From positions 359,675-423,674 of the forward strand of contig JAJDCY010000010.1 of the NCBI GenBank assembly GCA_029260595.1: a DNA stretch of 64,000 nucleotides, written 5' to 3'. This DNA comes from Phycisphaeraceae bacterium (GTDB taxonomy: Bacteria; Planctomycetota; Phycisphaerae; Phycisphaerales; Phycisphaeraceae). The notes under the pieces were generated by a model. That model made no database searches. It was given only the letters and a program-made list of their open reading frames with translations, and was not told the DNA's origin. Within the stretch, counting starts at the first letter, position 1, and each line of letters opens with the position of its first letter. A program made the position numbers and the translations under genes. Below are positions 38,003-62,498 of the stretch, one piece after another.

Positions 38003-38551
38003 ATGGAGTCGCAGGAGTTCCGACAACTCGCGTTGGCCGAGATCGATGCTGTCTATCGGATGGCGTTGCACCTGACCCGCCACCCCGATGAGGCGTCCGA
38101 TCTGGTGCAGGACACGTATGTGCGCGCGCTGGGCGCGGAGGCGGGGTTCGAGCTGCGTGACCGCGGGATCCGCCCGTGGTTGTTCAAGATCCTCCGCAAC
38201 GTTTTTTACACGAAGATCAGCCGCAAGCGGCGTGAGCCGACGCTGGCGGACGATCTGCAGCACGAGGCGGCCGCGGCTGAGCTTGAGACGCCCCCGCCCG
38301 CATGGGACATGGGGAGTCTGAATTGGGAGCACGTTGATGAGCGTCTCAAGCACGCGATCGAGGAGTTGGCTGAGCCGTATCGGCTGGTGCTGCTGCTGTG
38401 GGCGGTCGAGGGGCTCAAGTACCGCGAGATCGCCGATGTGCTGGATATCGCGCTGGGGACGGTGATGAGCCGGCTGTACCGGGCGCGGGTGATCTTATCG
38501 GAGAAATTGGCCGGATTAGCGGCTGAACACGGGATCAAGGTTGGGGAATGA
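38003..38551 (+). CDS. ECF-type RNA polymerase sigma factor
   Basis: 182 residues. Region 2 (about 12-75) contains HPDEASDLVQDTYVRAL and RPWLFKILRNVFYTKISRKRR; region 4 (about 118-172) contains LAEPYRLVLLLWAVEGLKYREIADVLDIALGTVMSRLYRAR, the helix-turn-helix that reads the -35 element. A TATAAT-like hexamer occurs at about 37941 but without a clear -35 partner. The next gene, 80 bases downstream, is a likely anti-sigma factor with one membrane segment, so the pair probably responds to an envelope signal. Confidence 0.92.
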   Translation: MESQEFRQLALAEIDAVYRMALHLTRHPDEASDLVQDTYVRALGAEAGFELRDRGIRPWLFKILRNVFYTKISRKRREPTLADDLQHEAAAAELETPPPAWDMGSLNWEHVDERLKHAIEELAEPYRLVLLLWAVEGLKYREIADVLDIALGTVMSRLYRARVILSEKLAGLAAEHGIKVGE

Positions 38552-38631
38552 AATTAGCCGATCAGAGGTTTATTCCAGGGGACGGTGGAGTTTATTGGAG
38601 GCGGGGTCATTAGAAGATCGGGTGGAGTGTG

Positions 38632-39501
38632 ATGGATCGGAAGCTAGATCATGATGAGGTCCGCGGCTATCTCGCGGCATTCGCGGACGGGGAACTGGAC
38701 GTCGAGCAGAATCTGCGTGTGCTAGAGCACATGGCGATGGACCCGCAGTCGACGCGCAGGGTCATGCACCAGCAGCAGTTGCGCCAGGCAGTCGGGCGGG
38801 TGATCCGCGGCGATGCGCCGGGGGCGCCGGCGGATCTTCGTGGGAAGGTCGAGGCTGCGTTGGCGGATGTGCCTGCGACGAATACTCCTCGGTCCACGCG
38901 GGCGCCCCGATCGGTCCTCGCGGTGATCGGGCGGTGGGCTCCGGCTGCGGTCGCGGCGGTGTTGCTGGTCTCGGCGTTGACGGTTTTGCGGACGGCGGAT
39001 TCTTCCGGGCCGGCGGTCGCTGGGGCGGACGTGCTTTTTTCTGCGGCGAAGGTCCAGGAATTTGGCCGGCGTCACGTCAGTTGCTCGCGGATGCTGGATC
39101 GCCTGCACGGGTCTGAATTGTTCCCGCGGCAGGTTTCGCAACTGCCCGGTGCGCTCACGGCCTACCTTGGCGATAGCGGGCCGGTTCTGGGTTCGCTGGA
39201 TCTGACGGGGCTGGGGTATCGGTTCGTCGGCGCGGGTAAGTGCCTTGTGCCGGGGACCGGGTCGGTGCACCTGGTCTATGAGGCCGCTGAGCGGACGGCT
39301 CGGAGCGATTCGTTGAGCCTCTGGATCCGGGCGTACGATGGGAAAACAGACATCGAGCCGGGCAAGCTATACACGGCGAGCGGTCCGAGTGCCGTCCATC
39401 CCGTCCTGGTCTGGCGGGTGGGGGATGTGGTCTACTATCTCGTGGGCGATGGCCCGGAGCAGACGCGGGTGGCGGCGGAGCGGCTTCGGTCGGTCGGGTA
39501 G
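38632..39501 (+). CDS. membrane-anchored anti-sigma factor
   Basis: 289 residues. The N-terminal cytoplasmic part (1-85) with EVRGYLAAFADGELDVEQNLRVLEHM resembles anti-sigma domains of ECF partners but lacks the zinc-binding H-x3-C-x2-C motif. One membrane segment (about 98-118, WAPAAVAAVLLVSALTVL) is followed by a 170-residue periplasmic domain with LGYRFVGAGKCLVPGTGSVHLVYE. It follows the sigma factor directly, so it most likely holds it at the membrane. GGAG lies four bases before the ATG; a GTG at 38629 is an alternative start. Confidence 0.85.
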   Translation: MDRKLDHDEVRGYLAAFADGELDVEQNLRVLEHMAMDPQSTRRVMHQQQLRQAVGRVIRGDAPGAPADLRGKVEAALADVPATNTPRSTRAPRSVLAVIGRWAPAAVAAVLLVSALTVLRTADSSGPAVAGADVLFSAAKVQEFGRRHVSCSRMLDRLHGSELFPRQVSQLPGALTAYLGDSGPVLGSLDLTGLGYRFVGAGKCLVPGTGSVHLVYEAAERTARSDSLSLWIRAYDGKTDIEPGKLYTASGPSAVHPVLVWRVGDVVYYLVGDGPEQTRVAAERLRSVG

Positions 39502-44976: not shown

Positions 44977-45843
44977 TTAGCAGGTTCCGCCGGAGCAGCA
45001 GGATGATTGGGGCATCTCGACACTCGTGGGCTTGACCGCGAGCAGGTCGAGGCTGGAAACGTGGGCCGCGCCGTCGAAGTCTTTGGGGAGTTTTTCGAGC
45101 AGCTTGCCCGCCTCCGGGCTGCAGCCGAGCACCGAGAGCACGTCGTAGCCTTTGCGATCGGCTTTGGCGATGTTCAGGCCGGCGGCGACAGTGTGCGCGA
45201 GGTACTCGTTGATCAGCACCGCGCCGGAGATGCAGCCGATGTAGGCTTCAAGGTCCTGGGTGATCGCTTCGGGCAGTTCTTTGAGCAGGACGATGTCGCT
45301 GATCGCTGCTTGGCCGCCGGGCTTGAGCACGCGCTCGATCTCGGCGAAGACGCGGGGTTTTTGCGGCGAGAGGTTGACGACGCAGTTGCTGATGACCAGA
45401 TCGACGCAGTTGTCGTCGATCGGCAGGTCCTCGATCACTCCCTTACGGAACTCGACGTTGTCGTAGCCGTGGTCGGCGGCGAAACGGCGGGCTTTTTCGA
45501 GCATCGCGTCGGTCATATCGACACCGATCACGCGGCCCGATGGGCCGACCTTCTTCGCCGCGATGAAGCAATCGACGCCGGCACCGCTGCCCAGGTCGAG
45601 GACGGTCATGCCCTCGGCGATCAACGTCAGGCTGGTGGGGCTGCCGCAGCCGAGGCCGAGATTCGCCCCGTCGGGAAGCGATGCGAGGTCTTGCTCGCTG
45701 TAGCCGATCGCCTGGCCGTGTTCCTTGATGGACCCGCTGTCGCTGGGCCCGCAGCAGCAGGCGCCGCCGCTCTGGGCGATCTGTCCGTAACGCTGGGAAA
45801 CCTGGTCACGGATATCAACACACGAACTATTCTCTGAGGACAT
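44977..45843 (-). CDS. arsM: arsenite S-adenosylmethyltransferase
   Basis: 288 residues from the ATG at 45843, with GGAG eight bases upstream. ArsM methylates arsenite with SAM to volatile or less bound species. The SAM motif VLDLGSGAGVDCFIAAKKVG and the following IGVDMTDAMLEKA are clear, along with VISNCVVNLSPQKPRVFAEIERVLKPGG and YIGCISGA, whose cysteines (VISNC and YIGC) are the arsenic-binding residues. A Cys cluster near the N-terminus (GGACCCG) and SSCCSGGTC at the end add further metal ligands. It has no arsR or arsenite pump beside it. Confidence 0.95.
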   Translation of the reverse strand: MSSENSSCVDIRDQVSQRYGQIAQSGGACCCGPSDSGSIKEHGQAIGYSEQDLASLPDGANLGLGCGSPTSLTLIAEGMTVLDLGSGAGVDCFIAAKKVGPSGRVIGVDMTDAMLEKARRFAADHGYDNVEFRKGVIEDLPIDDNCVDLVISNCVVNLSPQKPRVFAEIERVLKPGGQAAISDIVLLKELPEAITQDLEAYIGCISGAVLINEYLAHTVAAGLNIAKADRKGYDVLSVLGCSPEAGKLLEKLPKDFDGAAHVSSLDLLAVKPTSVEMPQSSCCSGGTC

Positions 45844-46196
45844 CGGGGTTTCTCCGGTCAAGGTCCAGTCAGTGGCCGCTAGCCAGCGGCGTCGAACACG
45901 CGCATGATACACACCGACCGAATTAACCGGCAAACGCGGCGGGTTATTCCGTTGGGTGGGTCGAGCGGACCGACTGGTCGGGTTTCTTAGGCGGATTTGC
46001 CGGAAATATTCCGTCGTGGGAGTTTTTTTGTGAACCCATTGGCGACTGGTGCGTCGTATTGGCTTGACCATCGATGACTGGCCCCGGCGAACAACCGCGC
46101 GGTGTGACGCGGCTGCGCGGTGTTGCGCGGATGCGTCGCGGGCGAGACTGAACCGGACTTGATGCGGATCCGACATGAACTAATAAGGATACCCCG
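45844..46196. other. intergenic region between arsM and the giant envelope genes
   Basis: 353 bases between divergent genes. The giant gene has AAGGA seven bases before its ATG. No ArsR operator, tRNA or clear promoter is recognised. A short palindrome (CGGAA-ATA-TTCCG, about 46001-46013) is followed eight bases later by a T-run (46023-46029), which is too weak to call a terminator. Confidence 0.5.
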
Positions 46197-49100
46197 ATGC
46201 CGATGACCACAGTGCGGAGCACCTGCGGCGGTGCGATGACCATTCTCGCGGCGTTGATCCTGCTTCTGACGATTACCGGTCCGACACAAGCCGAACGATC
46301 CTTGCCGCCCGACGCCGTCGATTCGGTTGTGGGAGCGCCGCCCGAAGCGCTGGCTGAACAGAGCATCTACATTCCTTACAAGAAGCTCCGCGAGGTGTTT
46401 GAACGCGAAGGCCGCGGCGTCTTCATCCCCTACGAGCAGTTTCGCACGCTGTGGGAAGCCGCCCGCCGGGCAACGCCGGATCCGCAGAACGATGCGACGC
46501 CGGCTGATGCCCTGATATTGACGACACAGAACGAAGCCGAGGTTGTCGGCGATGCCGTTCGCGTCAGCAGCATGATCCATATCGAGGTATTCAAAAAGGG
46601 TTGGGTGCGTGTCCCGCTGCGGCTGCGCGACGCGGCGATTATTCGGGCGACCATCGCGGATCAGCCCGCACGCGTGGTATTCGATCCCGCGCACGGGCAC
46701 GAACTTATTTATCAGCATCAAGAAGATGGGCCGGCGGACATTCAGCTCCGTCTCGAATACGCCAAAGCGGTCAATAAGTCGCCGGGGCGACACGGCGTGG
46801 CGTTTGGGCCGCCGCAGGCGCCGGTGAGCCGCTGGCGGATCACGGTCCCCGAGCCCGACGCGAAGGTCGAGCTTGAGCCGATGATCGCGACAACGCAGAC
46901 GGCTAGCGACAAGCACACGATCAAGCCGGCGGGTACGGGCGATGACGGGCGGACGACGGTGTTGGCGTTTGTCGGCGCTGCGCCGCTGGTCCGGATCCAT
47001 TGGACGCCCAAATCTGAGGGCGCGGTGGGGATGGCTGCGTTGGCCGAGCTGCGCCTGCGGCAGCGGGTTTGGGTCGAGGAGGGCGTCGCCCGTGTGCGCG
47101 CCGATCTGCACTATCAGATCAGCCGGGCGGAGTTGACGAGCCTGACGCTTGATCTGCCGAGTGACTACAAGATCACCGACGTGATCGATGCCAACGCCAG
47201 GAGGTGGTCTGTTGAGACCAATGGCGATGGGCAACGGCTCACGGTTGATCTATTCGAGCCGGCGGACGAGTCGCAAGCGCTCACGATTTTACTGGAGCGG
47301 CTGATTGGTGATTCGCCGCGGCAGGAGTTGGTCACGCCGGTGATCAAGGCACACGGCGTCGCCCGGCAGCGCGGGGTGATCGCGGTCCACAGTGGGGCGG
47401 GGCTGGTGTGTGAGGTTGCGAGCAGCAGGGGCGTGTTGCAGGTCGGTGTCGATGAGTTGACCGCGGATTGGCGAGCCGGCGGGTGGGACTTCGCATACCG
47501 GTACGCGGCGTTGCCGTACAGCCTCGTCGTGTCAGTTGAGAAGATTGAGCCCGTCGTCAGGGCGCGGGTGTTGAGCGAAGCGCACATTCAGCCGCGTTCG
47601 CTTCGGCTGGTCTCAAATGTGGTTTTCGATGTGCAGCGGACGGGTGTTTTTCAGTTCGAGCTGGTCGTTCCAAGCGGATTTGATGTTGAGAGCGTTCGCG
47701 GTGTCGCGCTGGCGGGATCCGCCGCCGCAACCGTCGAGACGCACCACTTAGACGAGGCATCGCGGCGCTTGACGGTGAACCTCTCGCGCAGAGCAATGGG
47801 CGAAACCGGGCTAGTCGTAGATCTGTCGCGGCCGCTTGACGAGCCGAATCTGCTGGCGCCCACCGGCGAATCGGCGCAGATCAGCTTGCCGGCGGCCCGG
47901 GCGCCGGCGTCGTTTGTCGAGAGTCAGACCGGCCGGGTTGTGATCCGCGTGCCTGAGTCGTTGCGCGTGATGCCGCAGGATGCGAGCGGGTACCGCGCGG
48001 TGCCGGTCCGTGAAGCGTTGGAGCATCTGATGCCGCAACAGGCCGGGATCGTGACGGGTGATCCGGTGCTCGCGTTTGCGTACGAGCCAACCGCCGGTGC
48101 GTTGCCGCTTCGGGTTGACCGGCGTCAGCCTCATGCGGTGGTGCGTCAACTGCTTGTGGCGGGGATCAAACCCGGCGCGGTCGAGTACCGCGCGCGTTTT
48201 TCCTACGACATTCGTTACAGCCCGCTTGAGACACTGCGCATCGATGTTCCTGCGGAAGTTGCGCCGCGCATCCGCAACCTTTCCACTGAGATCCGCGTTC
48301 AGCCGTTGGACCCGCAGCCCGAAGATCTCGCGGCTGATACTGTCGCCTGGGGGTTCGTTGGGCGCGATCAGTTCCTCGGTAACGTGGTGATTCAACTCGC
48401 GTGGGAGGATCGGCTTGATGATACCGAAACCGGTAAGCCGGTGCTGGTCCGCGTCCCGAAGCTGTCGCCGTCTGGGACGCAGCGCGCGTGGGGTCAGGTT
48501 GTGTTGACGCGGGCCGAGGGCATCGACGTGCAGCCGACCGAGGGTGTCTTGAAGCTCTGGCCAATCGACCCGCGACACGACCTGATGCCCGACGCTGGTG
48601 TGTCCGATGCGGCGCGTGCGTTCGAGTTTCACGACGCGGGCTGGTCGCTGGAGTTGGCTGCGACCCACTACGAGCTCGAGCGCATCAAGCGCACCAGCAT
48701 CGAGCGGGCCGTCGTCAGGATGGTTCTGACCCGCAGCGACCAGATCGCGGTTCAGGCGCTGTATCGGATGCGCAGTGCCCGTCAGCGCCTGCGGCTGAGG
48801 CTGCCGGACGAAGCGCGTTTCGACACGCACCCGCTGCGCATCAATGGCGCGACGACGCCCCTTGAACGCGGCGATCAGAACGAGTTCATGGTCCCGCTGG
48901 TCGGGCGGAGCGCGGAAACCCCGTTCATCCTGGAGGTCCGGTACACGGTGCCCGATGCGACCTCTCTGTTGGACTTGCCGCAGTTCGTCGACGATCCGGC
49001 GGCACAGAACGTTTACTTGTCGGTCTATCTGCCGCGCAAACGCGCACTGATCGGTACAGCCGGGCCGTGGACCGGTCACAGCGGCGGCTGGCTGGGGCGC

Positions 49101-49670
49101 CTCGACGGTGAAGCCTCGGCACGCAACAAGCCGGACGAGTCATTGATCCGATGGGTCATCGAGAACGTGCCGGTGTCGTCCGATCCCGTCGTTGGATTCC
49201 AAACAGACGGACGGCGGTATTTGTTCTCGACATTGAGCCCGCAGCCACCGCCGGACGGATCGTTACGGCTGGTGACGATCAACCGAACGGTATTGCGGAT
49301 GGCGACGCTGATTCTGATCCCGGGCTGTGGGTTGGTGTTGTTGCTAACCGGGGCGCTGTCGCGGTGTGTTGCGGTGGGGGTTGCCGCGGTTGGGCTGCTG
49401 TTGTCAGGTGTCTTCGCGCCGAGGTTCGCCGCGGAGATATCCAGTGTGACGGCCTTGGTCGCGGCGCTCGTTGTGCTGATTATCTGGGCAGTTCATTACC
49501 GCGGATGGGTACGGCCTCGGCTGCTCGCCGAGCGGCGCGCCTGGCTCGCCAATGCGGTTGCGGCCGCGTCGGTGGGCACTGACCCGCCGACATCGCCGGG
49601 GACATCGAAGGACGTCGCGGCAGGCGGCGCCGACTCGCCAAAGGAATCCGGAGGGGCGAGCCATGACTAA
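46197..49670 (+). CDS. giant exported protein, module A of a three-module family
   Basis: 1157 residues. A signal peptide (hydrophobic about 14-27, cut after TQA) is followed by a motif SIYIPYKKLREVFEREGRG then FIPYEQFRTLW (about 56-84), then a long chain of beta-sandwich-like segments. Residues about 1020-1120 contain three hydrophobic segments (VLRMATLILIPGCGLVLLL, VAAVGLLLSGVF, VTALVAALVVLIIW) and a basic cytoplasmic tail, so the bulk lies in the periplasm or paryphoplasm. The VPY-x-YE-x-F-x-LW opening and the strand pattern recur twice in the next gene. I know no function. The ATG follows AAGGA by seven bases. Its stop overlaps the next start by eight bases. Confidence 0.85.
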   Translation: MPMTTVRSTCGGAMTILAALILLLTITGPTQAERSLPPDAVDSVVGAPPEALAEQSIYIPYKKLREVFEREGRGVFIPYEQFRTLWEAARRATPDPQNDATPADALILTTQNEAEVVGDAVRVSSMIHIEVFKKGWVRVPLRLRDAAIIRATIADQPARVVFDPAHGHELIYQHQEDGPADIQLRLEYAKAVNKSPGRHGVAFGPPQAPVSRWRITVPEPDAKVELEPMIATTQTASDKHTIKPAGTGDDGRTTVLAFVGAAPLVRIHWTPKSEGAVGMAALAELRLRQRVWVEEGVARVRADLHYQISRAELTSLTLDLPSDYKITDVIDANARRWSVETNGDGQRLTVDLFEPADESQALTILLERLIGDSPRQELVTPVIKAHGVARQRGVIAVHSGAGLVCEVASSRGVLQVGVDELTADWRAGGWDFAYRYAALPYSLVVSVEKIEPVVRARVLSEAHIQPRSLRLVSNVVFDVQRTGVFQFELVVPSGFDVESVRGVALAGSAAATVETHHLDEASRRLTVNLSRRAMGETGLVVDLSRPLDEPNLLAPTGESAQISLPAARAPASFVESQTGRVVIRVPESLRVMPQDASGYRAVPVREALEHLMPQQAGIVTGDPVLAFAYEPTAGALPLRVDRRQPHAVVRQLLVAGIKPGAVEYRARFSYDIRYSPLETLRIDVPAEVAPRIRNLSTEIRVQPLDPQPEDLAADTVAWGFVGRDQFLGNVVIQLAWEDRLDDTETGKPVLVRVPKLSPSGTQRAWGQVVLTRAEGIDVQPTEGVLKLWPIDPRHDLMPDAGVSDAARAFEFHDAGWSLELAATHYELERIKRTSIERAVVRMVLTRSDQIAVQALYRMRSARQRLRLRLPDEARFDTHPLRINGATTPLERGDQNEFMVPLVGRSAETPFILEVRYTVPDATSLLDLPQFVDDPAAQNVYLSVYLPRKRALIGTAGPWTGHSGGWLGRLDGEASARNKPDESLIRWVIENVPVSSDPVVGFQTDGRRYLFSTLSPQPPPDGSLRLVTINRTVLRMATLILIPGCGLVLLLTGALSRCVAVGVAAVGLLLSGVFAPRFAAEISSVTALVAALVVLIIWAVHYRGWVRPRLLAERRAWLANAVAAASVGTDPPTSPGTSKDVAAGGADSPKESGGASHD

Positions 49671-52600
49671 GCAGACTTATTGTCGGGTAATGTCGGTAGT
49701 GATACTGATGGCGTCTTTGGTGGGGCATGCCGCCGTGGCGTCGGCGGTTCAGCCACCGTCGGAACTGCGGGTAGATCGGGAATTGCACGTCCCGTACGAC
49801 GACCTGAACATCCTGCTGGAAGGCGGTGTCGAGCGCGTGCTCATGACCCGTCAGGAATACGAGTCGCTGCTGGCCCACTCGAAGCGACAGCCGGTGGACG
49901 CCGCGCCGCTGAGGGCCGCGCTGATCGCCGGCGACTACGAGATCGCGATTGATGACGCACGGGCAGTGATCCGCGCAACGCTAACAATCGACGGGCTCGA
50001 GGACGGGTTGCATCCGGTTCCGCTGGACTTTAGCGGTGTCGGGATCCGCGGTGCGGTCATCGACGGTGTCGATGCGCCGATCGCGATCGGCGACGACGGT
50101 CGGCCTGTTGTTTTTGTTCGTGATGTCGGGCGGCGTGAGTTGCGCGTCGAAGCTGTCGCCCCGCTGCGACCGGTCGATGCCCACCGGGCACTGCAGATAA
50201 AGATTCCGACCCCGGCGTCGACGCGAATCAGTGTGACGGCTGTGGGGGATGTCGAGATCCGCAGCGGGCTGACGGTGATCCGACGGGACTACGACGCCGC
50301 TGCCGGGGTTACGCGATTCGAACTGCTGCCCGAGCGCGGGCCGGTCTCTCTGGTGGTATCGATGAACCACCGCTTTGAGCAATCGCAGGCCACGCTGCTC
50401 TCGCGATCCGTAACCGTCGCGACCGTGCAGGGAACCACCGAACAGATCGAGACGACGGCGTCGATCAGCGTCCTGCACCGCGCCGTCGAGCGGTTGCGCT
50501 TCAGTGTGCCGCAGGGATTCGAGGTGACGCGTGTGACTTGCCCACACCTGGCGAGTTGGACGGTTGCCGAGACCGGGGCATCGAAGGTGCTGGAGATTGA
50601 GCTGAGCGAGCCTGTTGCCGATACGGAGGTCGTTCGGATCACGGCGAATCGCCAGGTTCCTACGCCGGCTGAATGGTCGCTGCAACGCATCGCGCCGCTT
50701 GGTGTTGTCAGCGATGTTTCAATTGTCGGCTTGGTGCTCGATCAGCGTTTGAGTGTGCGCGCGGCGATGCCGGAGGGGTTGATCCCGCTTGACACCGCTG
50801 TGATCGACGCGGTGGTCGCAGGCGACAGGCCCGCCGGCGTGCCGGTTGTGTCAGCGACGCGACCGGTGCTCGCGTTCTATGCACCGCAAGGTGGGTTCGG
50901 ATTGAAGGCCGAGATTGAGAAAGCGCCGGCCGAGTTGCGGGTCGCGGCGACGTTGTCGATGACACTTGATCGTTCGACGCAGCGCGTGCGCGGCGGGTTG
51001 ACGCTGGCACCGCTGGGGGAGGCGTGCTACGGGTTTGATCTACTCGTGCCCGGCGGTTGGCGGGTCACGGCGTTGACTGACAGCGACCGCGCGCCGCTGC
51101 GGTTCGATCCGGTGCGCGAGGGGGCGGGCGGACAGACGCACGAACGACTGCGGGTGCGATTGCCCGCGGGGATCCTGCCGGGCGAGCAGCGGATCGTGTA
51201 TTTCGAAGCCGAGGCCCTGCCTCAAGGCTGGCTCGGTGGATGGCGTGACATTCAGGTTGCGATGCCAAACTTTGCGGTCGCGGGCGCGTCGGCCCAGACG
51301 GGTGTGGTGATGGTGATCGGAGACGATGATCTGGCGGTCGTGCCGGATCGGTTGGTTGGCCTAGCCGCGCTCGATGAGAACGAAAAGGCTGAGTACGGGC
51401 TCGGCGGCGGCGATGCGACGGCGTACCGGTACGACGAACCGGGTTACGAAGGCGTCTTCCGAGTCAGTCGATACCAGCCGCGTCTGTCGGCCGAGACGGT
51501 GTCGAGCTTTCGGCTTAACCCGGACACGCTCGATGCGCATTATGAGTTGGTGTTTCGGATCGACCGGGCCCGGACCGATCGGCTGGCGTTGTTGCTTCCG
51601 CAGAGCACACCAATAGCGATTTCAATCACCAGCGTCAGCGGTGCGACGGTCAAGGAGTTCACCGATCACCCGGCCGAAGGGGGAATGCGGCATTGGTCCG
51701 TCACACTGGCTGAACCGGTGCGAGGGAGCGTCCGACTTGCCGTCGATTTTCAGCAACGGATCACCGGCAACGGTGAGAGTGAGCTGACGCTGCCTGTGGT
51801 TGTCGCCGATGCGGTGGAGTATCAGTCGGGCCTCGTATCGATCGAGGGCAGCGACGAATTGGATATCGAGGTCACGGCGCACCCGCGGCGTGTTGATGTC
51901 GGCGAGCTGGTCGATGCGACCTATCAGCCGGGCCCGCGGCTGCTGGGTGTGTATCAGTTCGTTGGGCACCCGGATGCGGTCACCGTGGTGCACGAACGAA
52001 GCGGCGGGTACGGCTTGCCGCCGGCGGTCATCCAGCATGCGGGGTTGAGGACGGCGGTATCGGCGAACGGGCTAGCGCAGACTGTCGCCGCGTATCGGTT
52101 GCGCGCACAAGCGCTGTTTCTTGAGGTCCGCCTGCCGGATCAATCACGTCTGTGGACTGCGACGCTTGATGGCGAGCCGATTAAGCCGCAGCGCGAGTCG
52201 GGGCGTATTTTGCTGGATCTGCCTGCGTCACCTTACTCCGTTGATCGGGAGCTTGTGATCGTCTACGAAACACCGGTCGATGCGATCGGCGCTTACGGTG
52301 ATCTAGCTCTGGGTGCACCGGGGATGGTGTTTCATAGTGGTATGCCAGCAGATTCAGGCGATTACAGCCCGGCTGCGGCTGTGCCTGTCACCGAGTTCGA
52401 ATGGATTCTGTACCCACCGCGTGGTTACCGAATGGTCGCTTCACATGGGACCGTCACCACGGAGGCCGCGGCGTGGCCGCGCGGAAGCGGTGCCGTGCTG
52501 TTTGGCGGCTCTGCAGGCACGGCGTCACGGGCGAGTCCATCGGACCACAGCCATCTCGAGCGCGCGCTATCTAAGCTTTCGGTGCCGGACGGGCGCAGTG

Positions 52601-55600
52601 GCTTCAAGGTAACCGCCAAGAAATCATCAAAGAAGTCAGCCGACGAGCTTCTGGGTGTTCGTGGTTTAGACATCGCGTTGGATGCCGAAGGTGATCCCAT
52701 CCGTTTTCACAGCCTGGGTGCATCGCCGCGGTTGCAGGTCACGCTTGTGGACCATCGGCGTATTGATGCGTTCGCGCGTGCCGTCGGGTTGCTGGTATTT
52801 ACGATCGGGGTTGCGTTGGTGACCAGAACGCCGATCACGAAAGTACGGTACTTGCTGGTGACGAGTTTTGTCGCCACAGTGCCGCTGCTGTTTAGCCGGC
52901 CTGATTTGGCGCAGGTTGGTTACGCGGGGCTGATGGGCGTGATGTGTTTGGTGCCGTTCTATGCGTGTGCAGGCGTCATCGCATTCATCGCGCGGCGTGT
53001 GCGGACGCCGCGGCTGCCGGTCGGGGCGGTTGCCACGGGCGCGGTCGTCGTGGCGGTGCTGATCGGGTTGGGCGTCAACCCCGCATCGGCCGCTGACGAG
53101 CCAGAGGACGTCGGCCCGCCGGTCGTGGTGCCGGATGACGCGGTTGTCGTCCCCTATGACCCGGCGGATGCTTCGAGCGATCCGGCGGACGACCGGCTGT
53201 TGGTGCCTTATGAGCGATTCGTCGAGCTGTGGAACCTGGCCTATCCAAATGAGGCGATCGAAGCAGTCGATCTGGTGGTGCCGTATGCCTTGGCGGGCAC
53301 GGCGTTCACCGCGACGCTGACGAGTCAATCACATCTGGTATTTGAGGGCGGGTTTGAGGTAGAGGTTTTTACGGATGGTGTTGTTTCGGTCCCGCTGGCG
53401 TTGGTGGGGGGGGTGTTCGCGTCGGCGACGCTCGACGGGCAGCCGGCACCGGTGCGAACGGTTGGGCTCGATCTCGTGGCCGATCGACAAGCCCGATTTT
53501 TGCCACAGGACGCGGGCAACGAGTTGTCGGTTTTGCAGGTGCGCGGGCGTGGGCGACATCGGGTTGGGTTGCAGGTTCATGTCCCGCTAACGCGGCAGGG
53601 CGGGTGGCGCATCGCGGCGTGCCGTCTGCCGTCGGGTGTCGCGGCGTCGCTTGCGCTGACGGTCCCCGATGCGGGTACTGAGGTGCGTCTCACGGACGTA
53701 ACGGATCAGAGTTTGGTTGAGACCAAGGAGACCGGGCAGCGGATTGAGACCGCGGTTGGGCGTGATGGGCGGGTCGCGATCCATTGGCGGGCGAAGGTTG
53801 ATCTGGGTGGCGTTGATCGCGGGCTCAAAGCCGACTGCCACGCCATCGTCGAGGTTGAGCACGGGCGCGTACGATCGACCTGGTCGTTTGATCTGGCGTT
53901 TCCGCGCGGTGAGCGCGAGGGGTTCGAGGTGCGGATTCCCGATGGTTACCTGGTCGAGTCAGTTGAGGGGGCCAATATCCGCGGGTGGCGGGCTGACGAT
54001 TCTCAGGAGTCGACGGTACGCATCAGCCTTCTGCGGCCGGCGAAGGATCGAGAGAGTTTTGTGGTTCGGGTGCGCCGCGAGCAGGGCGACGGGTATGGCG
54101 AGGCGACGGAGATCGACGCGCCAAGTCTGGTCGTCACCGGTGCGGCGGTTCAGAGCGGGACGCTTGTGATCCGTCGGAGCCCCGGCTTAACGGTTCGCAC
54201 GCTGGCCGCGACCGGTGCATCGCGCACGGATATGCCCCAGGCCGCCTCCCATCATGCCGCGGCCCGCGAATCCGGCGGGGTGATGCGGACGACGCCTCAT
54301 GAGGCTTACCGTTTTGCGTCGTCGGGGTTGGGTATTCGCATGGCGGTTTCGCCCACGCCGATCCGTCGGTCGGCCCGGGTCCAGACTTTGGTCCGCCTTG
54401 GCAGCAACGAGCACACGGTTGAGTCGCGTGTGGTGATGAACGTGAAACAGGGCGTTGTACACGCAGCAACGGTCGATGTTCCGCGAGGGTTCACCACCGA
54501 CGCCGTCTCGGCACCGATGCCGTTTGAGTGGGCGATCGTGCCCAGTCGGGACGGGCAGCGGATCACGGTATCGCTTGGGGTTGGGCAGCGCGATGAGTTC
54601 GCGATTGTGATCAAGGGCGCGCTGTCCAGTGACGGTGCGGCTACGAAGTTGCCACTGCCTCGGATCGTGGTGGGAGACGTCGAGGACCAGCGGGGCGACA
54701 TTGTTATCCAGACCGACCCCGGTACGGACGCCGCGATGGAAGGCCTGGCCGGGTGTCGATCAATCGCGCTTGCCCGCGCCGACTCGTGGTTAAGCCCGGC
54801 ACAGCGCCCATTGGCCCGGCTTGCGCTGACGTACGAGAAGGCGGCCTATCGCGGGACGATCGTGTTGTCACAACGAGGGGCGGAGGTGTCGTGCAGCACG
54901 GTCACCAGTATCCGCGTTACGGATCGCGCGATCGAAGAGACGATCCTTTTCGACTTTCAAGTCAGCAACGCCGGGCTGCGCGAGGTTGCGTTTCTCCTAC
55001 CCGATCGACTGGCCGATGCACGCGTTTCCGTTCCGCTGCTTCGTCGCAAGACGGTGATGTCGGCCGAGGGCAATGCCGGTTGGGTACGGGTGCGGTTGCA
55101 ATTACAGGACAGCGTGATCGGCCCGCTGCGTGTCCTGGTCGAGCATGATCGACCGCTCAGCCACGAGGTGCAGGATGGGCCGATCCCCATCGTTGAGACC
55201 GGCCTCGTGGAACAGCGGCTGATGTCACTGGAGAACACCGGGTCGGACGAAGCCGTTATCGAATCGTACGCGGGCATGCAGCCGCTGACGGATCGATTGG
55301 CCAAGCACCACGGGTTAAGCCGATTGCTCGCGCTGGGGTCGGCCCAGTCTTACGAAGCGACGGGGCCGGACGTTGAGCCTAAGTTCACGTTTCGGATGAA
55401 GTCGCGGGAGACTGTCAGAACGGTCGATGCGCGGATTGGGTTGGCGCAGACGGTGTTCGTGCTTGACGCGGCGGGGGCCTACCGGGCGGCGCAGTCGTAT
55501 CGGATCGACAACGGCACCGAGCAGTATTTGGAGATTGAGCTTCCGGGTGGTGCGGAGCTTTGGGCTGCGACCGTCGCCGGCAACCCGGTCAAGCCGGTTC

Positions 55601-56931
55601 GGCCGCCCGGCGCTGCTTCGGCGGGGCTTATCCGCATCCCGCTGATCAAGACCGCGCCGGGCGATCTCGATTACGAAGTCACGGTGACGTATGCGGGCGA
55701 GCTAGGCCGGCTGCACCGCCTTGCCTCGATGGATTTTCCGATGATCCGCGCGACCAATATCGGTGTTGAGCTTAGCCAGGCGCGGCTGTTCCTTCCGGAC
55801 ACGCACCGGTGGTTCGGGTTCGAAGGGAGCATGCGTCGCGTCACCCGTGCCGGCGATCTCGAAGCGGGTTACCTGTCCTACACGTCCAAGCAAGTCGAGC
55901 GGCTGACACACACACTTAAGGATTCGAACCCCTATGCGCAGGCCCGTGCGTCTCACAACATCGCGGACCTGAAGGGGCAGATCGGGGCGTATCAGGATCA
56001 GCTCGGGCGTGTCGGTGGGAATGAGGAGCTTCGCCGCCAACAGGCATCCAACGCGGCGATCCTCGAGCAGGCTGAGCGCGAAGCCAAGCGTGTCGAGGCC
56101 GACGAGGCCGCGCCTGTTTACGCCGGTGGGCGTGCGCGGCTTAATGAGGTTTGGGCGACACAAAAAAACGTGCGATCAGGCAAAGCGATCGAGCAACTCG
56201 ACGCGAATTTTCGCGCGGTGCCGTCGCCGCAACCAAAAACTGAAGGCACCGATCCCGGTGTCGGCGGGGAGTTTTCCTACCAGTGGCTCGCGGATCACGG
56301 GTTGGCGAAGCAGGCTGACAATGCTCCGGGGTTGGATCAGGTCGGCCAGCCTCGGCCAACCGGTCGACCGACCGCTCGGCCGACCGGGCCGCTCGAGATC
56401 GGTGACCAGCGCATCAATCAGCAGCCGCAAGCGCCCCGATGGGACCGCCTCACAGAGAGCGAGAGCGTGCAGTTGCATCGGCCGGACGATGAAGAGCAGT
56501 CACAAGCTTCGCGCGAGTCGGGCAACAAGCCGGCCCTCACCAAGAGAGACCTCTATCGACGCAAGCTGAATCGGGCTCGCGGTGATCGCACGGACGATGA
56601 GCTTGTTGAAGCATTCAGTAGTGACGGTTTGCTCCGCGATACGGTCACTCTGCACGATCGCGACATGCTGAGCTCGGTGGTTCGCGGTGGTGGCGGCGAG
56701 TGGGAGGCGGGCGGTTTCGCCAATGGGATCGCGAGCCTTGATGTGCAGATCGTGACGGCTGGGACGGAGTATCGGTTCACCACGCCACGCGGTCAGGTTC
56801 AATTAAGTGGGCGTGCGGTCGCCGAGTCGTCGGTAACGATTGTTCGTCGCTTGCTCGCGTACCTCACCATTTTGGTTGTGGTCGGCTGGCTGATGTGGAT
56901 GTATCAGCGACAGGCGGCACGGGCCGGCTGA
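49663..56931 (+). CDS. giant two-module exported membrane protein (modules B and C fused)
   Basis: 2422 residues from the ATG at 49663 (GGAGGGG shortly before it). It opens with a signal peptide (cut about VASA) and HVPYDDLNILL, module B, ending near residue 1115 with membrane segments (RAVGLLVFTIGVALV, YLLVTSFVATVPLLF, GLMGVMCLVPFYACAGVIAFI). Then a second signal-like stretch ends in NPASAADEP at about 1146, and module C starts VVVPYDPADASSDPADDRLLVPYERF. Both modules share strand motifs and a LWAATVAGNPVKP/LWTATLDGEPIKP pair. The end (about 2080-2400) has a coiled coil, a disordered Gln/Pro-rich region and one final membrane segment. It reads as two paralogous genes fused. Confidence 0.85.
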   Translation: MTKQTYCRVMSVVILMASLVGHAAVASAVQPPSELRVDRELHVPYDDLNILLEGGVERVLMTRQEYESLLAHSKRQPVDAAPLRAALIAGDYEIAIDDARAVIRATLTIDGLEDGLHPVPLDFSGVGIRGAVIDGVDAPIAIGDDGRPVVFVRDVGRRELRVEAVAPLRPVDAHRALQIKIPTPASTRISVTAVGDVEIRSGLTVIRRDYDAAAGVTRFELLPERGPVSLVVSMNHRFEQSQATLLSRSVTVATVQGTTEQIETTASISVLHRAVERLRFSVPQGFEVTRVTCPHLASWTVAETGASKVLEIELSEPVADTEVVRITANRQVPTPAEWSLQRIAPLGVVSDVSIVGLVLDQRLSVRAAMPEGLIPLDTAVIDAVVAGDRPAGVPVVSATRPVLAFYAPQGGFGLKAEIEKAPAELRVAATLSMTLDRSTQRVRGGLTLAPLGEACYGFDLLVPGGWRVTALTDSDRAPLRFDPVREGAGGQTHERLRVRLPAGILPGEQRIVYFEAEALPQGWLGGWRDIQVAMPNFAVAGASAQTGVVMVIGDDDLAVVPDRLVGLAALDENEKAEYGLGGGDATAYRYDEPGYEGVFRVSRYQPRLSAETVSSFRLNPDTLDAHYELVFRIDRARTDRLALLLPQSTPIAISITSVSGATVKEFTDHPAEGGMRHWSVTLAEPVRGSVRLAVDFQQRITGNGESELTLPVVVADAVEYQSGLVSIEGSDELDIEVTAHPRRVDVGELVDATYQPGPRLLGVYQFVGHPDAVTVVHERSGGYGLPPAVIQHAGLRTAVSANGLAQTVAAYRLRAQALFLEVRLPDQSRLWTATLDGEPIKPQRESGRILLDLPASPYSVDRELVIVYETPVDAIGAYGDLALGAPGMVFHSGMPADSGDYSPAAAVPVTEFEWILYPPRGYRMVASHGTVTTEAAAWPRGSGAVLFGGSAGTASRASPSDHSHLERALSKLSVPDGRSGFKVTAKKSSKKSADELLGVRGLDIALDAEGDPIRFHSLGASPRLQVTLVDHRRIDAFARAVGLLVFTIGVALVTRTPITKVRYLLVTSFVATVPLLFSRPDLAQVGYAGLMGVMCLVPFYACAGVIAFIARRVRTPRLPVGAVATGAVVVAVLIGLGVNPASAADEPEDVGPPVVVPDDAVVVPYDPADASSDPADDRLLVPYERFVELWNLAYPNEAIEAVDLVVPYALAGTAFTATLTSQSHLVFEGGFEVEVFTDGVVSVPLALVGGVFASATLDGQPAPVRTVGLDLVADRQARFLPQDAGNELSVLQVRGRGRHRVGLQVHVPLTRQGGWRIAACRLPSGVAASLALTVPDAGTEVRLTDVTDQSLVETKETGQRIETAVGRDGRVAIHWRAKVDLGGVDRGLKADCHAIVEVEHGRVRSTWSFDLAFPRGEREGFEVRIPDGYLVESVEGANIRGWRADDSQESTVRISLLRPAKDRESFVVRVRREQGDGYGEATEIDAPSLVVTGAAVQSGTLVIRRSPGLTVRTLAATGASRTDMPQAASHHAAARESGGVMRTTPHEAYRFASSGLGIRMAVSPTPIRRSARVQTLVRLGSNEHTVESRVVMNVKQGVVHAATVDVPRGFTTDAVSAPMPFEWAIVPSRDGQRITVSLGVGQRDEFAIVIKGALSSDGAATKLPLPRIVVGDVEDQRGDIVIQTDPGTDAAMEGLAGCRSIALARADSWLSPAQRPLARLALTYEKAAYRGTIVLSQRGAEVSCSTVTSIRVTDRAIEETILFDFQVSNAGLREVAFLLPDRLADARVSVPLLRRKTVMSAEGNAGWVRVRLQLQDSVIGPLRVLVEHDRPLSHEVQDGPIPIVETGLVEQRLMSLENTGSDEAVIESYAGMQPLTDRLAKHHGLSRLLALGSAQSYEATGPDVEPKFTFRMKSRETVRTVDARIGLAQTVFVLDAAGAYRAAQSYRIDNGTEQYLEIELPGGAELWAATVAGNPVKPVRPPGAASAGLIRIPLIKTAPGDLDYEVTVTYAGELGRLHRLASMDFPMIRATNIGVELSQARLFLPDTHRWFGFEGSMRRVTRAGDLEAGYLSYTSKQVERLTHTLKDSNPYAQARASHNIADLKGQIGAYQDQLGRVGGNEELRRQQASNAAILEQAEREAKRVEADEAAPVYAGGRARLNEVWATQKNVRSGKAIEQLDANFRAVPSPQPKTEGTDPGVGGEFSYQWLADHGLAKQADNAPGLDQVGQPRPTGRPTARPTGPLEIGDQRINQQPQAPRWDRLTESESVQLHRPDDEEQSQASRESGNKPALTKRDLYRRKLNRARGDRTDDELVEAFSSDGLLRDTVTLHDRDMLSSVVRGGGGEWEAGGFANGIASLDVQIVTAGTEYRFTTPRGQVQLSGRAVAESSVTIVRRLLAYLTILVVVGWLMWMYQRQAARAG

Positions 56932-56945
56932 TACTCGACCGTGGA

Positions 56946-57479
56946 TCACTCGTCGACCGGTCGCAACGGCTTGGCTTTGCGGCGCGACGCAGGCTGTTGG
57001 CTGATCTCCGACAACACCCGCAGCCCCGTCGCGATCTGTTCGATCGCCTGGTATCCGTCCGGGACGATCCGTGTTAGCTGATCGTTGTTGATGTGGTCGT
57101 CCTGGATCGCGGCTTCGACTTTGGTGAGTGTTTCGCTGAGGTTCTGGAACGCCATCACCATTGCGCGCAGCGCATCGAATCGATCCACCTTGCCGTCGCG
57201 ATTCACATCCAGGTCGGAGTTGGTCCAGATCTGGCGGATCGGTGTGCCCGCGGTGAGCGCTTGTGCCAGCCGCAGCTTCACTTCGCGTTCGGGGTGATGC
57301 CTGATCCATTGACGAACCGTCTCGAACTTCGGTTGGCCTTCGTTGTTGACGTAGCGTCCGACGGCGCTGTCGCTGACGCCGGCCAGCTCGGCCAACTCGA
57401 TACCGGTCGCGAGCTTCTCGCTGATCAGTTGTTGCAGCGTCTCGCTGAGCAGATTGCCTTTCCCGCTTTTGTTAGTCAT
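56946..57479 (-). CDS. HTH DNA-binding protein with dockerin-type calcium loop
   Basis: 177 residues from the ATG at 57479. A Cro/C1-like helix-turn-helix lies at about 28-50 (GIELAELAGVSDSAVGRYVNN). After a helical linker, residues 91-102 form a perfect 12-residue dockerin/EF-hand loop with Asp1, Asn3, Asp5, Gly6, Asp9 and Asp12 (LDVNRDGKVDRFDALRAMVMAF). The rest is helical. There is no signal peptide, so the loop, usually found in secreted dockerins, would be in the cytoplasm. It is convergent with the giant gene (14 bases) and divergent from the Cys-rich/FeeM pair, which it could control. Confidence 0.82.
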   Translation of the reverse strand: MTNKSGKGNLLSETLQQLISEKLATGIELAELAGVSDSAVGRYVNNEGQPKFETVRQWIRHHPEREVKLRLAQALTAGTPIRQIWTNSDLDVNRDGKVDRFDALRAMVMAFQNLSETLTKVEAAIQDDHINNDQLTRIVPDGYQAIEQIATGLRVLSEISQQPASRRKAKPLRPVDE

Positions 57480-57612
57480 GGCTGATGGGTTCCCGCCATT
57501 GCCCCCGCTCGCTGGACATACGATCAGAATGTGAACCGGCAACGTAGACCGGGCACCGCGGCCACTGCCGTTGAATTGTACCCGCAACGCGATCGAAAGG
57601 AGCGATGACCCA

Positions 57613-57957
57613 GTGACAAACTCAAGTGGTTCCAAGTGCTGCACCGAGCCCTGCCGGGGGTTGAAATGCGGAAGGAGCCGCCGGAACGAGTCCAAGGCCA
57701 CAACTGCGGCCACACACGTGGGTACACCCGAGGGCGACGCTCGCCTGGCCGATCAGCTCATGCTGTTGGTCGCTCGGCTGTTCGGGGTGTCGTCACACCA
57801 GTCTCGCCATCAGCCGGTGGCTCTGACGCTGGGCGCAAGTGAGCCTCATGCGTGCGGCGGCGCCTGCGGCCGGCCCGGCGCCGGCGGTTGCCCCTGCCGC
57901 AAGAAACATGGCCGTCCGCGCCCTGCAGTCGGACAGAGTTTGGAGGTGTCGTTGTGA
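57613..57957 (+). CDS. small Cys-rich protein coupled to the FeeM-like gene
   Basis: About 114 residues from a GTG at 57613, ten bases after AAAGGAG. The stop overlaps the GTG start of the next gene (GTGA, four bases), which supports that it is translated. It has eight cysteines in two groups, SKCCTEPCRGLKCG at the start and HACGGACGRPGAGGCPCRKK near the end, suggesting metal binding. The middle is a short helix (RLADQLMLLVARLFG). I do not know a family for it. An upstream TTG at 57571 is less likely. Confidence 0.6.
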   Translation: MTNSSGSKCCTEPCRGLKCGRSRRNESKATTAATHVGTPEGDARLADQLMLLVARLFGVSSHQSRHQPVALTLGASEPHACGGACGRPGAGGCPCRKKHGRPRPAVGQSLEVSL

Positions 57958-58820
57958 TCCTAGCCGCTGAAAAATCACCCGATCTGGATCGCCAGTTGGC
58001 TGACGTGGCTGTCGATGCGTTGGCGACCGAGCCACGTATGTCGCAGCGCTTCCGCCCGGTGCGGTCGGTTCATGAGATCAGCCGAGCGTGGCACCTGGTC
58101 TACCGCGCATACCACCATGCCGGGTTGATTTACTCCAATCCGTACCTCCTGCATACGACGCCGGCCGCGACCGGTGAGGGGGCGATGGTGTTGATCGATC
58201 AGCCTGGCGATGATGTCAGTGGGACGCTGACGGTGGTTGAGGATTCGCCCCAAGGCCTCTCGCTCGACCGCTGGTTCCGTCCCGAGTTGGATCGGTTGCG
58301 TGAGCAGGGCGGGCACTTGATGGAGGTCGGGCTGTTCGCGCATGCCGGGCAGCTACCTGAGCCTGTCGATGAGTCGCCCGGTTCCGGCTATCCACGATGT
58401 GGCGCCATCCCCGCCGCACAACGGTCGGCCGAGATGGGGGCGAGCTTGTTCGGGATGCTGCGGATTGCATTTTGGTACGGCATTCACCATGGCGTGACGG
58501 ACTTCGTCGTCGCGGCACACCCCGCACAGGCCCGCTACTTTTCGGTTGCGTTTGGCTTATTGCAGATCGGATTGCCACGGGACGGTGATGCGCCGCGGCG
58601 GCGTCCGATGGTGCTGATGCGTGTGAATGTGGAAGCGATGCTCGACCGCGGCCCGCTTCCCGCGACCTGGCGCGCGATGCTTGATGACCCGATCAATCCT
58701 GATTGCTTCGCCAGCCGCCACACCCTCCGCCCGGCCCGCCCGCACTCGTTAGCCGTGCTCGCCGGGCATATCGACGAGTACCTGTGGTTCCAGTACCCGG
58801 GGTCACGGGTGGCGAACTAA
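57954..58820 (+). CDS. FeeM-like N-acyl amino acid synthase (GNAT fold)
   Basis: 288 residues from the GTG at 57954, which has GGAGGT six bases upstream and overlaps the previous gene by four bases. The core matches the FeeM acyltransferase family: a segment HLVYRAYHHAGLIYSNPYLLHTT, then VSGTLTVVEDSPQGL, RLREQGGHLMEVGLFA, and later GIHHGVTDFVVAAHPAQARYFSVAFGLLQIG. FeeM-type enzymes move long acyl chains from acyl carrier protein onto amino acids, making N-acyl amino acid signals or lipids. The acceptor here is unknown. It forms a unit with the Cys-rich gene. Confidence 0.8.
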   Translation: MILAAEKSPDLDRQLADVAVDALATEPRMSQRFRPVRSVHEISRAWHLVYRAYHHAGLIYSNPYLLHTTPAATGEGAMVLIDQPGDDVSGTLTVVEDSPQGLSLDRWFRPELDRLREQGGHLMEVGLFAHAGQLPEPVDESPGSGYPRCGAIPAAQRSAEMGASLFGMLRIAFWYGIHHGVTDFVVAAHPAQARYFSVAFGLLQIGLPRDGDAPRRRPMVLMRVNVEAMLDRGPLPATWRAMLDDPINPDCFASRHTLRPARPHSLAVLAGHIDEYLWFQYPGSRVAN

Positions 58821-60435: not shown

Positions 60436-60617
60436 CCCGAAATCTAATCGCACGCATCCTCTTGCACGGCGGACGGCGCCACCGCCGATTGGTGGTGGGG
60501 CGTGCGTTTGCTAAGGTTTATCGGTGGGCGACCCGCCCAATAGCGGTGACGTTTGCCGCTCAAACGCATTCAGCCGCGGCGATATCAGCCGCTTGGCATC
60601 AGGAAGGACGTCACGCC

Positions 60618-62498
60618 GTGACCACCGCGAATTGGCCATCACTGAACCCGCCACCCCAACTGAAAAAAGCGCTCGAGAGTTGCCGCCACGTCACCGTCGC
60701 GGCCAACGTCGAGCAGCTCACCGCCGCCGCTTGTGGCCGCCCCGAGGACGACCTGCTCGAAGTCACCTACGACCTGCCCGACGGGCGCACCGAGTCCGAA
60801 GCCACCGTCGCCCGTGTCCGCAACGGCATCGTCGCAAACTACCCCGATCCCTACATGAGGCGGCGCGACCCCGACTGCATGGTCATCGCCGACGACCAGC
60901 CGACCGACAAAGCGCGCTACCGCGACCGCTTCGGCAAGTCGTTCGACTCGTTGCGCACGGAAACATTCGATTGGCTGGCGAAACAAGAACTCACTGTTTT
61001 CGCGTTCCAGGCCGGTCAACCCGGGATGGGCACCGATGCGATCGCCGTCGCCCCGACCAACGCCGCGTTTTTCGCGCTCGGCCTGGCGCTGCTCCAGGGA
61101 ATCCGCGACCCGGCCGACCTTCCGTCCGGGTTCAACCCGCAGACGATTATTTACGTGGCCCCGCCGTTTCGACACACGCATTTCGCCGGCAAGCAGGTCG
61201 TCGTTCATGACCGCACCGGCGGGCTGCACGAGATCTTCGCGTACAACCTGTACCCCGGCCCCAGCGCGAAGAAAGGCATCTACGGTGCGCTGATCCGCCA
61301 GGGTGCGGAGGAAGGCTGGATCACCGCGCACTGCTCGGCCGTCCAGGTCGTCACCCCTTACGACAACGTCGTCACCATCATGCACGAGGGGGCCAGCGGT
61401 GGCGGCAAGAGCGAGATGCTCGAACAGCCGCACCGCCTGCCCGACGGCCAACTCCTCGTCGGCCACAATTTTATCTCCGGCGAAGAACGCTACGTTGAAA
61501 TCCCCCGCACGTGCGAGCTGCACCCGGTCTGCGACGACATGGCCCTGTGCCACCCCGCGATCCAGCAGGCCAACCGCAAGCTCTGGCTGACCGATGCCGA
61601 AGACTCCTGGTTTGTCCGCGTCAACCACATCACCGGCTACGGCACCGACATCGACATCGAGCGCCTCACCGCCAATCCGCCGCGCCCGCTGTTGTTCCTG
61701 AACATCGACTCGGTCCCCAACAGCCGCGCCCTGATCTGGGAGCACATCGAGGACGAACCCGGCAAGCCGTGCCCCAACCCGCGCGTCGTCATCCCGCGCA
61801 CCATCATCCCCAACATCGTCAATGAACCGGTGAGCATCGACATCCGCAGCATCGGCATCCGCACGCCACCGTTCACGCAGGAAAAGCCCAGCTACGGGAT
61901 CATCGGGATCTGCCACATTCTTCCGCCGGCGTTGGCGTGGGTATGGCGGTTGGTCGCCCCGCGCGGCTACGCCAACCCGAGCATCGTCGGCTCGGACAAA
62001 ATGTCCAGCGAGGGTGTCGGCAGCTATTGGCCGTTCGCCACCGGCCGACGAGTCGACCAGGCCAACCTCATCCTCCGCCAGATCGAACAAACCCCCGCGA
62101 CGCGCTACGTCGTGATCCCCAACCAGCACATCGGCGCATGGGAGGTCGGTTTCATGCCCCAGTGGCTCGCACGCGACTACCTCGCCCGACGCGGCAGCGC
62201 CAAGTTTTCCGACGCCCAGATCAGCCCAGCCGTCTGCCCGCTGCTCGGCTACACCCTCAACTCGATGCGCATCGAGGGTGTTCGCATGCCCCGCCGTTTG
62301 CTCGATGTCGCCCTCCAGCCGGAGGTCGGCCCGGAAGGCTACGCCAAGGGCGCCGCGATCCTCCGCGACTTCTTCACCGAAAACCTCATGCAATACCTCG
62401 AGCCCGATCTGTCACCGCTCGGCCGCGAGATCATCCAGGCCACGCTCGACGGTGCCGCCGTCACTGACTACGAACGCCTGCTGCCGCAATCGCGATGA
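60618..62498 (+). CDS. DUF4914 family PEPCK-like P-loop protein
   Basis: 626 residues from the GTG at 60618, with AGGAAGGA about nine bases upstream; the frame is open further upstream without family-like sequence. The sequence shows the DUF4914 pattern known from Planctomycetes and Bacteroidetes: VTYDLPDGRTESEATVARVRNGIVANYPDPYMRRRDPDCMV, IIYVAPPFRHTHFAGKQVVVHDR and FAYNLYPGPSAKKGIYG, with a phosphate-binding loop HEGASGGGKSEM (P-loop about 258-266) like that of PEP carboxykinase and HPr kinase. Its reaction is unknown; an ATP- or PP-dependent kinase or carboxykinase is the reasonable guess. A small RNA gene lies 133 bases downstream. Confidence 0.85.
   Translation: MTTANWPSLNPPPQLKKALESCRHVTVAANVEQLTAAACGRPEDDLLEVTYDLPDGRTESEATVARVRNGIVANYPDPYMRRRDPDCMVIADDQPTDKARYRDRFGKSFDSLRTETFDWLAKQELTVFAFQAGQPGMGTDAIAVAPTNAAFFALGLALLQGIRDPADLPSGFNPQTIIYVAPPFRHTHFAGKQVVVHDRTGGLHEIFAYNLYPGPSAKKGIYGALIRQGAEEGWITAHCSAVQVVTPYDNVVTIMHEGASGGGKSEMLEQPHRLPDGQLLVGHNFISGEERYVEIPRTCELHPVCDDMALCHPAIQQANRKLWLTDAEDSWFVRVNHITGYGTDIDIERLTANPPRPLLFLNIDSVPNSRALIWEHIEDEPGKPCPNPRVVIPRTIIPNIVNEPVSIDIRSIGIRTPPFTQEKPSYGIIGICHILPPALAWVWRLVAPRGYANPSIVGSDKMSSEGVGSYWPFATGRRVDQANLILRQIEQTPATRYVVIPNQHIGAWEVGFMPQWLARDYLARRGSAKFSDAQISPAVCPLLGYTLNSMRIEGVRMPRRLLDVALQPEVGPEGYAKGAAILRDFFTENLMQYLEPDLSPLGREIIQATLDGAAVTDYERLLPQSR

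Follow-up and report, generated by a model that had tools for sequence, protein, structure and literature searches.

The described systems closest to the gene pair presented here are the lumenal domain of ribophorin I (Ost1) of the oligosaccharyltransferase, the legs of integrin alpha chains, ECF sigma factors with zf-HC2/VWA/YfbK_C anti-sigma proteins, and the fbcH cytochrome b/c1 precursor, a bacterial polyprotein that is cut at an internal signal peptide. Membership of a catalogued family is ruled out for the three modules encoded by the pair, designated A, B and C: no family in Pfam, NCBIfam or PADLOC was matched above its curated cut-off, a profile of 45 A proteins found nothing meaningful among PDB sequences, and a plasmid search was empty. 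Among 62 B and C rows, accessory matches were confined to single members, apart from one weak STN match in two members. Likewise, neither the family nor an association of VWA anti-sigma proteins with module genes was found described in open-licence papers. In the libraries searched, this conserved pair, which occupies about 10.7 kb, is covered by no family model and carries neither a name nor a function; its relatives occur in about one in three of the Planctomycetota genomes sampled and extend to several further phyla.

Module A is encoded on the + strand at 46197..49670 of the window (the whole 64,000 nt stretch of Phycisphaeraceae DNA that was analysed) by an ORF of 1157 aa, with A-clade orthologues in five phyla and an AlphaFold2 (AF2) model of pLDDT 83. 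Modules B and C are fused in a second + strand ORF, BC (49663..56931; 2422 aa). Its ATG, at 49663, has a GGAGGGG ribosome-binding site ahead of it, and the first 8 nt of BC overlap the stop of A (ATGACTAA). An alternative BC start at 49552, giving a longer ORF of 2459 aa, is not the likely one. Because the outer neighbours of A and BC both lie on the opposite strand, the two genes constitute a two-gene unit. The initial annotation, made from the sequence of this region, had placed them in one operon; this is borne out by the overlap and by the presence of a module gene at most 250 bp downstream, mostly overlapping, in 40 of 49 complete A genes.

Divergent from A is a methyltransferase gene (44977-46176) whose actual start codon is probably some distance into the ORF, and whose Cys-rich ends resemble those of an arsenite methyltransferase. 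Just past BC, at 56946-58820, a gene for an HTH protein on the − strand is divergent from one for a FeeM-like N-acyl amino acid synthase (PF21926, E 2.4e-21). A DUF4914 protein (E 9e-299) is encoded at 60462-62498, directly after a cysteinyl-tRNA synthetase gene.

Full-length profile homology connects the three modules. Comparison of separate orthologue alignments by hhalign (45 rows for A, 31 for B and 31 for C) gave E = 1.8e-108 over 1,023 columns for A and B, E = 2.6e-103 over 871 columns for A and C, and E = 7.5e-97 over 866 columns for B and C. The homology of the modules had been proposed from shared motifs, with a profile alignment of more than 500 residues as its mark; all three pairs exceed that length. 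The match is co-linear, beginning at the N-terminal motif and extending across the beta region. In single-sequence searches (tblastn/phmmer), window A matches window C over residues 28-673 with E ~1e-15, and window B with E ~1e-7. The (I/V)PY...PYxxF..LW opening that had been noticed as common to the modules falls inside the hhalign-matched region and is conserved among orthologues, with the strictest conservation in A and C. The earlier proposal of a duplicated, very large secreted and membrane-anchored protein without a described family is strongly supported, the event being a triplication; the profile comparisons show A, B and C, at the level of sequence, to be three paralogous modules.

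In all three modules a signal peptide is followed by a PY/LW hairpin, then by tandem beta units and finally by a C-terminal membrane anchor. In A, the signal peptide is encoded at 46197..46292 (hydrophobic segment at aa 12, probable cleavage after ...GPTQA) and is followed by the conserved N-terminal motif YIPYKKLREVFEREGRGVFIPYEQFRTLW at 46356..46469, by about five tandem beta units of ~180 aa at 46509..49232, and by three membrane helices at 49284..49541 that are evident both in the model and in the hydropathy profile. In BC, the signal peptide of B, recognized from its sequence, lies at 49663..49746 and the mature part of the module at 49747..53004, as delimited by hydropathy and by hhalign to A and C, with three membrane segments (hydropathy) at about 52753-52971. 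Module C (53092..56931; AF2, hhalign and hydropathy) consists of the N-terminal PY/LW motif at about 53143-53247, tandem beta units at about 53284-55791, a helical hairpin at about 55849-56103 and a single C-terminal membrane helix at about 56839-56901; all of these features are on the + strand. Present, then, are the signal peptides previously noted on A and B, the internal one at the start of C that had been called a possible relic, and the roughly three membrane segments said to end both A and B.

Within A, self-hhalign aligned residues 280-452, 450-645 and 643-828 (R1-R3) pairwise (E from 1e-21 to 1e-26); for the first and last units the alignment was weaker. Judging from these internal repeats, each module comprises about five tandem beta units of ~180 residues, and the AF2 models agree. 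The A model is beta from residue 105 to 1012, with membrane helices at 1030-1123, and that of C (pLDDT 78.5) has the same layout with the helical hairpin in addition. For both models pTM is below 0.5, so that the relative positions of the domains are unreliable and a rod shape is not established. The N-terminal motif of A is modelled as two short helices with low confidence and is possibly a partner-binding element; the N-terminal hairpin, strongly conserved though modelled with low confidence, may be where the modules contact one another.

Several members of the family depart from this layout. The C module at L132:12429-17243 carries a squalene-hopene-cyclase-like helical domain near its end (PF13243, E 1.3e-8), which other scanned C modules do not have, and a C module from Verrucomicrobiota (L152:17451-21494) matches the autotransporter passenger repeat PATR (E 2.2e-9). 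A 3321-aa relative of BC (L101:12028-21993) has about 500 extra N-terminal residues ahead of its B module, with no Pfam match.

The joint between B and C, located after the membrane segments of B and near the start of C, reads VGAVATGAVVVAVLIGLGVNPASA followed by ADEPED in the window. The internal signal peptide itself, TPRLPVGAVATGAVVVAVLIGLGVNPASA before ADEPED, is encoded at 52999..53091 on the + strand, with a probable signal-peptidase cut near 53091. A signal-peptide-like hydrophobic segment and a signal-peptidase-like site are kept at the joint in 35/35 BC fusions compared. A strict form of the site (small-x-A then Q/E/D) occurs in 26 of 33 junction segments, compared with 10 of 208 other hydrophobic segments of the same proteins (Fisher p about 1.5e-20, a nominal value as the rows are related and the pattern was chosen after viewing the sequences); the loose form occurs in 31/33 and 76/208, respectively. 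Apart from its signal-peptide features the joint is poorly conserved, and the site contrast is still large. When signal-peptidase sites were ranked across whole proteins, the junction came first in only 21 of 35 fusions because ordinary membrane segments score too; the matched-segment test is the better control. B and C are encoded by separate genes in L056/L125 (one locus), L063, L150 and L153. On these sequence features, BC is probably a polyprotein that signal peptidase would cut into two proteins, which is likelier than one continuous chain of two modules in which the central signal peptide survives only as a relic. The internal signal peptide might also serve only as an uncut membrane crossing.

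Relatives were detected with the C-module profile in 103 of 294 Planctomycetota genomes (51 of the 154 of good quality) and in 21 of 145 Verrucomicrobiota genomes, counts that include related two-module proteins. The genome scan yielded 67 named loci, among them loci in Omnitrophota, Desulfobacterales HSG16 and Wallbacteria. The initial annotation was thus wrong in suggesting a system special to planctomycetes, as the Verrucomicrobiota matches and the triplets in Omnitrophota, Desulfobacterales and Wallbacteria assemblies attest. Within the window's own family and order, 8 of 41 genomes match the BC query, and the distribution is therefore patchy. When 65 modules were placed in one joint tree, three clades resulted, one each for A, B and C (SH-aLRT 100, 97 and 99), and each spans Planctomycetota, Verrucomicrobiota, Omnitrophota, Thermodesulfobacteriota and Walliibacteriota with a similar inner order; a second, smaller tree again recovers A and C as clades, with B as one clade but for one long-branch row. 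Recent local duplication is ruled out by the joint tree. Since each clade extends across five phyla, the triplication predates the spread of the family and the divergence of its present hosts, and the three specialized paralogues have been lastingly retained together. The phylogeny shows the ABC triplet to travel together, kept as a unit since the ancient triplication.

In several lineages a gene encoding zf-HC2, a membrane segment, VWA and YfbK_C lies directly upstream of the module gene and is itself preceded by a gene for an ECF sigma factor; in some ABC loci the VWA gene is directly upstream of A. In the loci read, 16 of 18 VWA-type genes are directly upstream of a module gene, and the two exceptions are one locus (L142/L066) at which A was dropped by the gene caller. 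VWA/anti-sigma genes occupy 16 of the 44 directly upstream positions versus 2 of the 631 other ORFs (675 ORFs in total), a count that includes the duplicates L057/L128, L060/L138 and L065/L157 and leaves about 13 distinct adjacent cases. A related two-module protein of about 2,090-2,340 aa is without the PY/LW motif, and its halves form clades of their own, D1 and D2. The operon of ECF sigma factor, VWA/YfbK_C anti-sigma-like protein and two-module giant (L163:2494-15085, L166, L170, L171, L172, L174 and L177) is conserved in Verrucomicrobiota and Planctomycetota and is a sister system to the ABC triplet; the complete genome CP036272.1 carries both this operon (L163) and an ABC locus. A lipoprotein-type cut at the joint of the two-module proteins was considered but is not claimed, the Cys contexts in L165, L077 and L086 not being canonical lipoboxes. 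Most ABC loci, that of the window included, have no sigma/VWA neighbours. No YfbK_C (PF12034)/VWA anti-sigma protein was found in the window genome, which is 88 % complete, and the sigma/VWA link therefore belongs to the wider family, not to the window locus. About 7 kb upstream of A, at 38003-39501, the window encodes an ECF sigma factor of 182 aa and, after it, a 290-aa protein that matches zf-HC2 weakly; this is an ordinary-looking sigma/anti-sigma pair for which no link to A and BC is claimed.

The favoured reading, to which we give a probability of about 40 %, is that A, B and C assemble in the envelope as a hetero-complex of paralogous, membrane-anchored rods, three in all, that acts as a scaffold and/or sensor. 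Translational coupling and the shared BC polyprotein would provide the three modules in equal amounts. Signal peptidase would split BC at the internal signal peptide, leaving B with its three membrane helices and C with its own anchor, and the products would assemble 1:1:1 into a hetero-oligomer standing in the envelope as a structural and/or sensing element. In relatives, the ECF sigma/VWA pair of the same operon may monitor the complex or control its production; in the window's organism, the complex would work without this regulator. As no neighbour beyond the sigma/VWA pair is conserved, the functional guess rests on anatomy. The initial annotation had proposed an envelope scaffold or a transport system; the regulatory genes found beside relatives accord better with a scaffold or a sensor than with transport.

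A less probable possibility, and the one among the alternatives that holds up best, is that the modules are chiefly the ectodomain sensor half of an ECF sigma/VWA anti-sigma system, with loci of the window's type having lost or re-wired the regulator. A periplasmic VWA domain would dock on the modules via its metal site, and strain, damage or a ligand would release it, so freeing the sigma factor. The conserved sister operon, present as a second locus in CP036272.1, and the VWA genes that immediately precede A at several ABC loci favour this reading, as do the VWA proteins themselves: the DxSGS metal-site motif occurs in 28/28 of those examined (in L079 its first occurrence is outside the VWA domain), and most have a single N-terminal membrane segment. 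However, the scarcity of such neighbours at ABC loci and the lack of a PF12034 protein in the window genome count against it, and operon neighbours may control expression only.

That the modules form a surface adhesin or fibre, projecting from the cell to bind surfaces or other cells, is improbable. The tandem beta units and the fold-level likeness to integrin alpha legs, and for C also to staphylococcal fibrinogen-binding adhesins, would suit such a role, but these matches are of a generic beta-sandwich kind, the anchors are multi-helix and lie in the inner membrane as the signal-peptide topology implies, and no dedicated surface-export signal was recognized. A more speculative reading, similarly unlikely, is an integrin-like bacterial envelope sensor built from co-evolved sets of two or three beta-rods, partly delivered as a signal-peptidase-cut polyprotein and with ABC as a specialized branch; here the metal-site VWA of the anti-sigma factor would engage the rods and report envelope strain or contact to the ECF sigma factor. 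A transport or secretion apparatus spanning the inner and outer membranes is more doubtful again: the modules could be long enough to cross the periplasm and would supply three anchored subunits, but a channel-like membrane domain is absent, and in about 100 neighbourhoods only the sigma/VWA cluster recurs alongside, with no conserved transport component. Chance or compositional likeness of motifs among unrelated beta proteins is refuted by the hhalign comparisons, all three of which give E below 1e-96 across 866 columns or more. Relative to these alternatives, the envelope hetero-complex is retained as the working interpretation. The module boundaries, ancient triplication, internal signal peptide and sigma/VWA link turn anonymous giant genes into a definable family, from which testable predictions on envelope architecture in planctomycetes and verrucomicrobia follow.

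Among known systems, the lumenal domain of ribophorin I is the top structural match of A (all-beta, ~430 columns, Foldseek E 1.7e-9), with about 10 % identity and a TM-score, computed on whole chains only, of at most 0.40, below the 0.5 expected of a common whole-chain fold; by sequence, A matches neither the Ribophorin_I Pfam model nor the PDB chains. Unlike ribophorin I, the window system has five units per module and three paralogous modules, and it is bacterial. Lower-ranked matches of A are M1-aminopeptidase (LTA4 hydrolase) and the inter-alpha-inhibitor heavy chain, and its matches also include integrin alpha legs; C matches ribophorin I, fibrinogen-binding adhesins and, at the top, integrins. 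Integrin alpha-chain legs resemble the modules in being a row of beta-sandwiches followed by a membrane anchor, whereas the TM-score is under 0.2, there is no sequence match, and the anchors of A and B are multi-helix. With whole-chain TM-scores of 0.1-0.4, the structural matches suggest a general kind of fold rather than membership. In Planctomycetota and Verrucomicrobiota, genes for the ECF sigma factor and its zf-HC2/VWA/YfbK_C anti-sigma protein sit in the same operon as those for related modules, but not at the window locus. A polyprotein of the fbcH type, like BC, joins a multi-helix membrane protein to an in-frame signal peptide and a second exported protein; the proteins themselves are unrelated, and the cleavage of BC is a predicted one. 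The protein family is undescribed in the libraries searched, while the principles invoked for it, namely beta-sandwich rods, ECF signalling and internal signal peptides, have precedents.
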